This document shows, piece by piece, positions 34,496-37,692 of a stretch of 37,692 nucleotides of DNA (position 1 is the first letter of the stretch; each line of letters begins with the position of its first letter). Origin of the DNA: Oscillospiraceae bacterium (lineage in GTDB: Bacteria > Bacillota > Clostridia > Oscillospirales > Oscillospiraceae); assembly GCA_024404315.1 (NCBI GenBank), contig JAKSQD010000015.1, positions 1 through 37,692 on the forward strand, written 5' to 3'. Position numbers and translations under genes: made by a program. The notes beneath the pieces are model-generated. The model made no database searches. It was not told the DNA's origin and saw nothing but the letters and a program-made list of their open reading frames with translations.

Positions 34496-35977
34496 ATGGC
34501 AAAAAAGTTTCAGCCTGTGAGTCCCGCCACTGAGCGGGAAACCCGCAGAGAAAAACTGGTGAGCCTCCGTGAAGCGGGTCGTGACCCCTTTATGGAGACC
34601 AAATTCGACTTCGATACGGTTGCAGCCGATATCAACAACAAGTTCGAAGAGCTGGAGGGGCGCACCGTCTCTGTTGCTGGCCGTCTGATGAGCAAGCGTG
34701 GCATGGGCAAGGTTTCCTTCTGCGATTTGCAGGATGACTCCGGCGTGGTGCAGCTGTATGTCCGCCGTGATCTGGTGGGCGAGGAGCCTTACAGCTACTT
34801 TAAGAAATATGACCGTGGTGATATCGTTGGTGTCACCGGCGAGGTGTTCAAGACGGAAAAGGGTCAGATTTCTGTTCGTGCCGAAAAGGTCACTCTGCTG
34901 GCAAAGAGCCTGAATCCCCTGCCCGAGAAGTTCCACGGCTTGACCGACCGTGAGACCCGTTACCGTGAGCGCTATGTGGACTTGATCGTCAATCCCGATG
35001 TCAAGCAAACCTTCATCAAGCGCAGCCTGATTCTGCGAGAGCTTCGCTCCTTCCTGGATGGCCGTGGCTTCCTGGAGGTGGATACCCCTATTCTGACTCC
35101 CTTTGAGATCGGCGCTTCTGCTCGTCCCTTCTACACCCACCACAACACGCTGGATATGGATATGGTGCTCCGCATCGAAACCGAGCTGTATCTGAAACGT
35201 TTGATTGTGGGCGGTATGGATCGTGTTTATGAGGTGGGTCGTATCTTCCGCAACGAGGGTATGGATCCCAAGCACAACCCCGAGTTCACCACCATTGAAC
35301 TGTATCAGGCTTACACCGATTTCCAGGGCATGATGGATCTGGTGGAAGACATGATGAAGACCGTGGCACAGAAGGTTTGCGGTACGCTGGTTGTCCCCTA
35401 TCAGGGTCACGAAATTGACCTGGGTCATTGGGAGCGCCTGACCATGGTGGAAGCAGTGAAAAAGTATTCCGGCGTGGACTTCAACGACTGGCAGACCGAT
35501 GAGGATGCCATCGCCTGCGCCAAGGATCACGAGGTGGAGCTGCCCGAGGTTCCCACGAAGGGGGCAATTCTGGCTGAGTTCTTCGACAAGTATGTGGAAG
35601 AAAAGCTGATTCAGCCCACCTTTATCTATGATTATCCCGTTGAGATTTCTCCTCTGGCAAAGCGCAAGCCCACCGATCCCGCTTTCACGGAGCGCTTTGA
35701 GTACTTCATCAATGCAACAGAGTTTGGCAACGCTTTCTCCGAGCTGAACGACCCCGTAGACCAGCGTGGACGCTTTGAGCGACAGGTTGCAGAACGCAAG
35801 GCGCTGGAGCCCAATACCCGTGCGCAGGTGGATTATGACTTTATCAACGCACTGGAATATGGTATGCCCCCCACGGGTGGCCTGGGCTTCGGCATTGACC
35901 GTCTGGTGATGCTGCTGACCGATTCTGCAAGCATCCGTGATGTTCTGCTGTTCCCCACGATGAAACCGTTGGACTAA
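34496..35977 (+). CDS. lysS: lysyl-tRNA synthetase, class II
   Basis: Charges tRNA-Lys. The 493-aa protein has the N-terminal OB-fold anticodon-binding domain (about residues 58-150), class II motif 2 (FRNEGMDPKHNPEFTTIE) and motif 3 (GLGFGIDRLVMLLT). The C-terminus DVLLFPTMKPLD is complete and conserved. Codon bias is strong (high expression). The last codons ATGAAACCG recur 600 nt downstream, so this 3' end appears to be an integration target and the terminal codons may have been supplied by the element. Confidence 0.97.
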   Translation: MAKKFQPVSPATERETRREKLVSLREAGRDPFMETKFDFDTVAADINNKFEELEGRTVSVAGRLMSKRGMGKVSFCDLQDDSGVVQLYVRRDLVGEEPYSYFKKYDRGDIVGVTGEVFKTEKGQISVRAEKVTLLAKSLNPLPEKFHGLTDRETRYRERYVDLIVNPDVKQTFIKRSLILRELRSFLDGRGFLEVDTPILTPFEIGASARPFYTHHNTLDMDMVLRIETELYLKRLIVGGMDRVYEVGRIFRNEGMDPKHNPEFTTIELYQAYTDFQGMMDLVEDMMKTVAQKVCGTLVVPYQGHEIDLGHWERLTMVEAVKKYSGVDFNDWQTDEDAIACAKDHEVELPEVPTKGAILAEFFDKYVEEKLIQPTFIYDYPVEISPLAKRKPTDPAFTERFEYFINATEFGNAFSELNDPVDQRGRFERQVAERKALEPNTRAQVDYDFINALEYGMPPTGGLGFGIDRLVMLLTDSASIRDVLLFPTMKPLD

Positions 35978-36060
35978 ATCTTCCGAGATTTGGCTAAAAA
36001 GCAAATAATTCAAGAGTTTGGTCTACCAAAAGTTAGAACTGACCAACGAACTGACCAAAG
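35951..36060. repeat. element end copy A at lysS (att-like)
   Basis: The lysS tail TTCCCCACGATGAAACCG (from 35951) is followed 78 nt after ATGAAACCG by a pair of 11-mers, ACTGACCAACG (36038-36048) and ACTGACCAAAG (36050-36060), 12 nt apart. The same arrangement recurs at 36551-36663. These resemble an attachment core with arm-type recombinase sites. Confidence 0.65.
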
Positions 36061-36130
36061 ATTTCAGAAAGTTCATTTGTGGTTAGGCTGATTTAAGCTG
36101 AACTCTATGAAGCACATAACAAAAATCAAG

Positions 36131-36194
36131 CAGGTAATTCGACACGTTTTCGCAACTTTTTGCAAGTGTTGACTTACCTGCTTTGTTTTCTTTT
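36131..36194 (+). terminator. hairpin copy A, likely lysS terminator
   Basis: CAGGTAATTCGACAC (36131-36145) pairs with GTGTTGACTTACCTG (36166-36180), with two imperfect pairs, followed by a T-rich stretch. It is the first terminator-like structure after lysS and is duplicated at 36723-36767. Confidence 0.65.
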
Positions 36195-36550
36195 AATCCC
36201 TGTTTTTTTGACATTTTTGCTGGTGATTCGCAAGTGGCGATTTTGAAGGCTCAGAAAGCCGCTCTTGCAGAGCAATTTTTGACTACCTATTCCCTATCGC
36301 CAGCCACCGAGATGCAGGATGCAGGAGAAAGCAGCTTATTCAGGTAGATACTTTGAATATTTTTGGATGACTAAAATGGCTTCATAACAACGTCAAACAA
36401 AGTGACCAAAACCAACATCAAAACCAAACCTATTGAGAAGATATAAGGAATCTCATGGAGATATATGAGTAACGTATATCTGAAAAGTTCAAAAAGTATC
36501 GAATATTGCCTGTATTTAAAAACAAATTGAACTTCTTTCTCAGCCATACA
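36181..36550. other. non-coding remnant between two element ends
   Basis: AT-rich DNA without a convincing gene. One plus frame, open from about 36138 to 36348 without a start codon, encodes a stretch ending QKAALAEQFLTTYSLSPATE and a short tail; it may be the relic of a gene of a first inserted element or chance. A single further AGTGACCAAA 11-mer stands at 36401-36411. Confidence 0.4.
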
Positions 36551-36663
36551 ATGTTTCCGACAATGAAACCGATTGATTAAAAATCAGGATTTGAGACAGA
36601 AAATCAAATTATAAACGCTATTTATCCTTGAAAAGTTCTAAGTGACCAAAGCACTGACCAACG
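36551..36663. repeat. element end copy B with lysS-like tail
   Basis: The bases 36551-36580 encode MFPTMKPID and a stop, a clear lysS C-terminus that belongs to no local gene. ATGAAACCG (36563-36571) is identical to the lysS end. AGTGACCAAAG (36641-36651) and ACTGACCAACG (36653-36663) follow at the same 78-nt distance and 12-nt spacing as in copy A. Overall the two copies are diverged homologues. Confidence 0.65.
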
Positions 36664-36722
36664 TGCCATTATAATGCTTTGAATTTTTCGAGAGATTTAT
36701 GAAGCCACTTACTAACGCAATA

Positions 36723-36779
36723 CAGGTAATTCGACACTTTTTGACGCAATTAGTGTTGAATTACCTGTTTCTTTTTTAT
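36723..36779 (+). terminator. hairpin copy B before parA
   Basis: CAGGTAATTCGACAC (36723-36737) and GTGTTGAATTACCTG (36753-36767) pair over 15 bp with one G-U wobble, followed by TTTCTTTTTT. It lies 24 nt before the parA-like gene and would block readthrough from lysS into the element. Confidence 0.7.
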
Positions 36780-36803
36780 CCAAATCAAAGGAAGAGTGAT
36801 GGC

Positions 36804-37692
36804 ATGGCAAAAGTAATCATGGTAGGGCTGCCCAAGGGCGGCGTAGCAAAGACCACAGTGACCCGTAACCTCGGCTACGAATTGGCTCAGGCTGGAAAGA
36901 AGGTGCTGATGATCGACTTTGATGGTCAGGCGAATCTCTCCATCTGCTGCGGCATCGACCAGCCGAAGGAGCTTGAAGTCACGGTGGGTAATCTTCTGAA
37001 ATACGAAAAGGACGGTCTTGAGCTTCCGCCTCACAGCGAATACCTGTTGAACGTGGACGGTGTTGACCTCATTCCCGCAAACAAGTATCTCACCGCCGTT
37101 GAAACGGAGATGAAGATGGACTATGGCTGTGACCAGCTCCTCGGCAACATCGTGGAAGCCTACCGTGAGGACTACGATTACATTCTCATTGATACGGGTC
37201 CCAACGAGGGAACGCTGACGGTCAACGCCCTGTGTGCCGCTGATTCCATCCTCATTCCTATGGACTTGCAGATTTTCGCACTTGCCGCCGTGCAGGAGGT
37301 TGTGACCAGCATCATCAAGCTCCGCCGCCGCTTGAAGAAGAAGCTGGACTTTGAGGGGATTGTGTTCAACAGGTACGATGAACGCACCAACCTTGCCAAT
37401 CAGATCATGAGCGAGGTTAAGGAAATATATGGTAATTCCATTCCGATGTTCAAGGCGACCATCCCCCAAACTGTCCGTATCGGTGAAGCTCACTATCCCA
37501 AGGCGGATATTACCGTGGCAGGCTTTGAAACGACCAACCTCCCGTCCTACTATGATGTTGCGGTTGGCAACGTGCCTTTCGGCAATTATCAGGTGGACGA
37601 CCCCACCTATAATTATCTCCGATTCTCCATCCACAACTACTTCGCCGCCAAAATGATCGACCAAGTACGCCCCGGCGGTATTACGGCGTTTG
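36804..37692 (+). CDS. ParA-type ATPase fused in frame to N6-adenine methylase segment (partial)
   Basis: Open to the window end (296 codons). Residues 1-231 are a ParA/MinD-like ATPase with deviant Walker A KGGVAKTT at 11-18, the A' segment LMIDFDGQAN, and DYILIDTGPN as Walker B; such genes open many integrative elements. From about residue 231-235 the sequence switches to the middle of an element-encoded DNA methylase: ITVAGFETTN, then YDVAVGNVPFG with the NxPF catalytic motif at 256-259, and DQVRPGGITAF. The usual ParA C-terminus and the methylase's SAM-binding N-terminus are missing. ATG 36804 has AAGGAAGAG 7 nt upstream. Likely a deletion join or an assembly chimera. Confidence 0.8.
   Translation, partial: MAKVIMVGLPKGGVAKTTVTRNLGYELAQAGKKVLMIDFDGQANLSICCGIDQPKELEVTVGNLLKYEKDGLELPPHSEYLLNVDGVDLIPANKYLTAVETEMKMDYGCDQLLGNIVEAYREDYDYILIDTGPNEGTLTVNALCAADSILIPMDLQIFALAAVQEVVTSIIKLRRRLKKKLDFEGIVFNRYDERTNLANQIMSEVKEIYGNSIPMFKATIPQTVRIGEAHYPKADITVAGFETTNLPSYYDVAVGNVPFGNYQVDDPTYNYLRFSIHNYFAAKMIDQVRPGGITAF

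Follow-up and report, generated by a model that had tools for sequence, protein, structure and literature searches.

Why does the end of lysS, the gene for lysyl-tRNA synthetase, occur twice within 1 kb, and what are the repeats and hairpins that follow each copy? The window, the whole 37,692-nt stretch of DNA that was analysed, is the entire contig C48 of a 2.6-Mb Oscillospiraceae genome in 140 contigs (G000), and in addition to lysS (34496–35977, plus strand; 493 aa, ending in MKPLD-stop; Pfam tRNA-synt_2, 1.5e-87) it contains spoIIIAA and spoVT-like genes, which point to a spore-forming Firmicute. An att-like core within lysS (TTCCCCACGATGAAACC, coding for FPTMKP; 35951–35967, plus strand), identical to the core at the lysS ends of relatives, returns as core B (TTTCCGACAATGAAACC; 36554–36570, plus strand; located by a core search of the genome), from which the frame goes on to MKPID-stop; core starts are 603 bp apart. 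We refer to the DNA between the cores as unit A and to that beyond core B as element B. Our favoured answer, which we regard as very probable, is that the lysS 3′ end is an insertion hot spot for stacking elements, with A reduced to its two ends and B carrying parA.

A first-pass annotation of this DNA had described two diverged copies of one element end, and its description of the parts proved accurate. The paired lysS-like tails are exact to the base, with ATGAAACCG at 35960 and 36563, and copy B does encode MFPTMKPID-stop in frame. The pairs of 11-mers start 78 nt past the ATG of each ATGAAACCG with a period of 12, at 36038/36050 in A and 36641/36653 in B: the left arm pair of unit A (ACTGACCAACG and ACTGACCAAAG; 36038–36060, plus strand) is a 10/10 match (shuffle p 0.005) and that of element B (AGTGACCAAAG and ACTGACCAACG; 36641–36663, plus strand) an 8/10 match (p 0.045). 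The hairpin was likewise found in both copies, with CAGGTAATTCGACAC at 36131 (+171) in A and at 36723 (+160) in B, as terminator-like structures with T-rich tails at 36122–36195 (−27.7 kcal/mol, z −6.8) and 36722–36778 (−26.6 kcal/mol, z −7.4), both on the plus strand and neither equalled by any of 200 shuffles. An exact scan for CAGGTAATTCGACAC in viral contigs gave 30 stretches, taken as chance without individual reading.

The pattern ATGARRCCN{60,85}TGACCAAN{3,7}TGACCAA occurs twice in the window as against never in 100 dinucleotide shuffles, and one of 400 family genomes, namely G000 itself, contains it; on the plus strand of the window there are nine copies of TGACCAA, five of them within 36040–36655. 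Two other identities for the site were rejected: the window holds no tRNA that could be the insertion target, and its five Rfam matches up to E 1 are each far under the gathering score.

What normally follows lysS was read from related genomes. With the lysS end as DNA query, 26 of 32 genus genomes gave a match, G000 among them, and the other six were left out; the loci of 25 relatives were fetched and 24 were readable (the contig of G026 ends before the lysS end), giving 25 readable ends with G000. By labels assigned by the analyst, not blind, 18 of these are element-bearing (G000 included) and 7 empty, lysS of the 24 relatives leading to a host gene or C-terminal domain in 7 and to element ends in 17. 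Among the empty loci, those of G029 and G028 run directly into trmH- and dprA-like genes, those of G002, G027, G024 and G004 continue uninterrupted into a C-terminal extension, and that of G030 is judged empty from its lack of element signs, the gene after lysS there being present in 1 of 32 genus genomes. In the 18 element-bearing genomes lysS terminates inside the core, and unrelated sequence follows. Two checks proposed for the first-pass reading thus came out in its favour: uninterrupted lysS loci exist (7 of 25 readable ends), and the same 830 bp was not seen after lysS in element-free genomes among the 24 relatives read. The contrast between element-bearing and empty relatives bears out the idea that the 3′ end of lysS is the target of a family of elements. 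No conserved host gene was found beyond the far side of a stack, trmH lying apart from lysS in most genomes.

The last residues of LysS vary with the element. At elements of the TTGACAGC type, 5 of 8 tails read PIDQ-stop and the others SIDQ, PID or PLE, and at the lysS of another genus (G073) the same type of element goes with MKPIDQ-stop; this fits an element that would supply the last lysS codons, so that the gene-preserving replacement of terminal codons suggested earlier appears to be right as far as relatives' lysS tails can tell. At 20 of 23 element ends a T run is immediately preceded by a hairpin of −13 kcal/mol or stronger, all within 320 nt (control, a simple letter shuffle, 30 each); the misses are the hairpin of B, which was seen in a separate fold, G005, with a weak one only in 348 nt of DNA, and G001, with none. 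Since a terminator-like hairpin is also found at 2 of 7 empty ends, the terminator is a usual component of the left end and no special mark of it.

Tandem stacks are present in three relatives (G014, G007 and G022), all in the same orientation and with a lysS-tail core at every joint. Allowing up to 3 mismatches, further cores follow the first at +9316 and +17566 in G014, at +7622 in G007 and, with 2 mismatches, at +3531 in G022. A match to the integrases P0001/P0002 ends 172–222 bp before each internal core of the three genomes, that of G022 being partial, with 44% identity; two of the four integrases (those of G014 element I and G007) were checked against Pfam, and both match PF02920 (Integrase_DNA) and PF00589 (Phage_integrase). 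The four complete relatives each have a tyrosine integrase of their own; unit A has none. Between the integrase stop and the core lies a right arm pair, which in G014 I, G014 II and G007 matches the left arms of the same element. The complete scheme of integrase, right arms and core was found in three of seven long contigs, and G003, G015, G001 and G006, with 9.8–33 kb after lysS, yielded neither a second core within 3 mismatches nor, at a threshold of 1e-8, a match to the integrases. With core and integrase at the joints of three relatives, the claimed stacking of elements at lysS holds.

In the first 3.5 kb past lysS of G022 (L084), the left arms are TTGACAGC and the right arms TTACCACC, which do not match; this first element is perhaps a hybrid that arose by deletion between two stacked elements.

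To score arm pairs, the two best-matching 10-mers with a period of 11 or 12 were sought 60–140 nt past the core ATG. By this rule a pair is present at all 23 element ends (18 at lysS, 5 at internal joints), scoring 8–10 of 10, as against none of the 7 empty lysS ends (4–6 of 10); the five joints, each with its pair, had been located from the core sequence alone. Compared with dinucleotide shuffles, 22 of the 23 element-end pairs reach p 0.005–0.045, the left pair of G010 being at 0.124, and the right pair of G007, whose string was entered by hand (the automatic pick scored 7), is not better than shuffles (p 0.239). The classes at lysS in the genus comprise TGACCAA, TTGACAGC, TTGACAGCAA, TAACCC(A), TTACCA with or without C, and others. 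Their occurrence at element ends and not at empty ones supports the proposal that the 11-mers are recombinase arm sites, which would bind the integrase.

Integrative elements with Tn916-type tyrosine integrases would thus have a hot spot at the lysS 3′ end. The left end of such an element would consist of replacement lysS codons with a stop, an arm pair and mostly an intrinsic terminator, and at its right end the integrase gene would be followed by right arms, again a pair, and by a further lysS-tail core; insertion at the core would restore an intact lysS on the left and leave a core on the right, so that elements stack in the same direction. Unit A would be what is left of an element whose two ends persist in 603 bp with no integrase, comparable to a CIME or microCIME, and behind it would come B with its parA. 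The anatomy, the stacking, the integrases in relatives and the clean empty sites are directly visible in the genomes, and relatives support the earlier interpretation in its main lines.

Unit A (35968–36553, plus strand) is flanked on both sides by the direct repeat of the lysS end (35951 and 36554), and with 603 bp between the two core starts its size suits the proposed insertion shrunk to about 600 bp. Behind its left arms and hairpin come about 200 bp that include a 45-codon open frame with a stop (36210–36347, plus strand), a possible gene remnant that ends where full elements have the integrase stop; this frame has no Pfam family, and its peptide was found in 1 of 200 family genomes, G000 alone. 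TGACCAA follows at 36403; core B is then some 150 bp off, and this is the place of the right arm in full elements (0.015 copies are expected in the 209-nt stretch). The candidate right arm covers 36401–36425 on the plus strand and consists of AGTGACCAAAA and, at period 12, a degenerate second site (pair p 0.09). A CIME or microCIME retains both att sites, is devoid of recombination and conjugation genes and stands in tandem with another element; unit A fits this description, with cores on both sides, arm sites, no Pfam-recognised gene and element B behind it. Searches of family genomes, genome contigs, viral contigs, and plasmid and phage collections returned no full-length relative of it, and its DNA matched no record in the plasmid or phage collections.

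Element B is visible from its left core to the end of the contig, which stops at 37692, 1.1 kb past core B. Its first gene, parA (36804–37691, plus strand; AAA_31, 1.5e-42), starts 141 bp past the B repeats; of B's genes the contig shows this one and what lies in the final ~190 bases of the contig, and viral contigs hold no relative of the ParA protein. Because relatives hold tandem stacks with core and integrase at the joints, unit A can most likely be taken as a remnant (or miniature) that lacks an integrase, and B, again most likely, as the left end of a second, parA-carrying element. Element B presumably has an integrase of the TGACCAA type. None of this arm type was found in G000, where there are nine PF00589 matches, none of them by a TGACCAA pair or lysS core in the fetched loci; nor did the available DNA contain a third core for the A/B pair. 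A third core-like match in the genome (C58:9797, one mismatch) has no TGACCAA in its 3-kb locus and no tyrosine-recombinase match on its contig.

In its last ~190 bases parA runs in frame into sequence resembling SNF2/helicase-type genes of plasmids and conjugative elements, a join at the contig end that may reflect a chimeric assembly or a deletion.

How far do other explanations account for the same locus? Unit A may have lost its middle by deletion, and the 45-codon frame looks like gene decay; unit A could instead be a miniature non-autonomous (MITE-like) element that has both ends and is moved in trans by the integrase of an element with the same type of arms. We consider this unlikely, while acknowledging that unit A has a left arm pair, a candidate right arm, cores on both sides and nothing else, that it adjoins lysS, the position expected of a newcomer that had entered the site on the lysS side, and that its left end differs from that of B, from which it was therefore not recently cut out. 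The unit has been seen just once (peptide in 1 of 200 and pattern in 1 of 400 family genomes, with no plasmid or phage record), which speaks against a miniature that moves.

Two similar 3′ ends in a row might come from a tandem duplication of the lysS 3′ end by the host. In the repeat comparison of the window, the similarity between A and B begins at the core and extends over the element ends, and the window's repeat listing has nothing linking the lysS sequence upstream of core A with that upstream of core B; a plain duplication of the lysS end is thereby refuted, and with empty sites of relatives lacking the whole region we give this origin practically no weight. The short distance from the B repeats to parA could make repeats and hairpin part of that gene's partition system, as iterons or as a centromere with a terminator; the repeats are the same in unit A, which has no parA, relatives with other first genes have pairs of other sequence at an equal distance from the core, and pairs also follow integrase stops elsewhere, so a partition site was rejected as highly improbable. 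Equally improbable is an assembly artefact at the junction: the contig end is open to doubt, since parA passes into an SNF2-type gene there, but copies A and B differ and the same architecture recurs in independent assemblies. The stacking of integrative elements remains the preferred reading.

Arrangements of this kind are known. As given in the excerpts of PMC4701971 and PMC7168690, three streptococcal ICEs are inserted in lysS with repeats of 13–17 bp (PMC4701971), and vanG-family ICEs form tandem accretions in the lysS of S. suis (PMC7168690); like the present elements, these (e.g. ICE_SsuGZ1_lysS) combine the same target gene end with a tyrosine integrase and direct repeats of that length, differing in their hosts and in that here several element types of one genus share the site and stack, with a core at each joint. 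CIMEs and gene-less microCIMEs, as presented in an excerpt of PMC7563491, stand in tandem with ICEs and IMEs, and the likeness to unit A lies in shared att sites and a decayed unit without integrase or identified gene; at 603 bp, unit A falls between microCIMEs (130–220 bp) and classical CIMEs (1.2–13 kb). It is the nearest to the target gene, whereas the decayed units of Streptococcus salivarius in that excerpt are always the farthest. Tn916-type integrases resemble those of G014 and G007 in matching PF02920 and PF00589 and in the paired 11–12-nt repeats near both ends; Tn916, to follow the excerpt of PMC4701971, has low target specificity and no flanking repeats, unlike the lysS-specific elements with direct repeats found here, so that these are not filed as Tn916 members, just as carrying a related type of integrase. 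The lysS target, tandem accretion and gene-less microCIMEs are therefore already published for streptococci; a literature search, with most subscription papers outside its scope, turned up no account of stacks at lysS of gut clostridia and none of an arm-site code.

Since the elements have the core in common, their joints offer a natural collection in which to study how a tyrosine integrase locates its own arms. Of 63 integrase loci gathered, 37 were analysed; six of these were set aside as duplicates and L271 had 3 nt only, and L226 and L262 are one and the same contig. In 27 of 30 rows with sufficient DNA (relatives of the integrase in viral contigs), the integrase match is followed, within 90 nt of its end, by a pair of period 11–12; L253, L254 and L266, three of the 30 rows, have none after the integrase stop, and the correlation is calculated without them. 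Arm similarity correlates with identity over 72 N-terminal positions (r 0.72 for 16 integrases, 0.61 for 30 rows), also after redundancy reduction (r 0.54 for 21 at 90% and 0.46 for 19 at 75%, p 0.0005 each, in permutation tests that leave some shared ancestry in these correlations). With the catalytic part, r is −0.09 and −0.13 once redundancy is removed, and weak with redundancy kept (0.30 and 0.21; p 0.002 and 0.004); given the other domain, partial correlations range from 0.46 to 0.71 with the N-terminal part and from −0.06 to −0.20 with the catalytic part. TTTACGACA arms go with the four integrases that read YEFK or YEYK (L224, L227, L233 and L256), and TACACC or TACTAAA arms with those that read YMYR. 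Judged by sequence comparison, arm-repeat sequence covaries with the N-terminal rather than the catalytic domain of the integrase (loci L223–L284).

The N-terminal domain of the Tn916 integrase binds 11-bp direct repeats through a beta-sheet. A bolder proposal, which we put forward tentatively and hold to be possible rather than probable, is that the paired arm repeats serve as an address code: around a common core, each integrase would read its own arms alone through such a beta-sheet, so that neighbours of different code would excise independently and stack safely, same-code neighbours would interfere and one of them would decay, and unit A might even be a miniature movable by another integrase of the TGACCAA type. 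The three different codes in a row in G014 and the two different ones in G007 would fit, and interference would be expected in the window, where both units have one code and one of them has decayed, and in G022, where the left code is the same and the first unit has mismatched arms. The end of a single essential gene serves several element types in one genus (TGACCAA, TTGACAGC, TAACCC and TTACCA(C)), in tandem, and recognition of its own arms decides whether a stacked element moves alone or together with its neighbours; we see the main worth of these stacks in their use as a test bed for arm-site specificity, the covariation of arms with the N-terminal domain being the more interesting by-product.

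Beyond the genus, a search for the TGACCAA pattern returned 50 stretches in genome contigs and one in viral contigs; in none of the 51 does lysS directly precede the pattern, the lysS-like match of L151 standing at a distance of over 2 kb. In L148 (a Lachnospiraceae MAG) and, on the opposite strand, in L159 (Metabacillus halosaccharovorans), an integrase match ends within about 100 nt of a TGACCAA pair, and in L160 the two are 1.7 kb apart; L148 and L159 are leads to the missing integrase type in unrelated hosts.

The C-terminal extension of lysS in G002, G027, G024 and G004 (loci L071, L075, L083 and L086), 145–160 aa long, resembles what we take to be a tRNA-binding OB domain. The idea that an element had cut such a domain off LysS in G000 was rejected: its only match to the domain is a 796-aa frame on another contig, so nothing shows a loss from lysS here. 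In G002 and G027 the extension is the sole match to the OB-like domain in the genome, and most other genomes have it in a frame at another place, possibly that of a methionyl-tRNA synthetase; domain switching between synthetases is possible.
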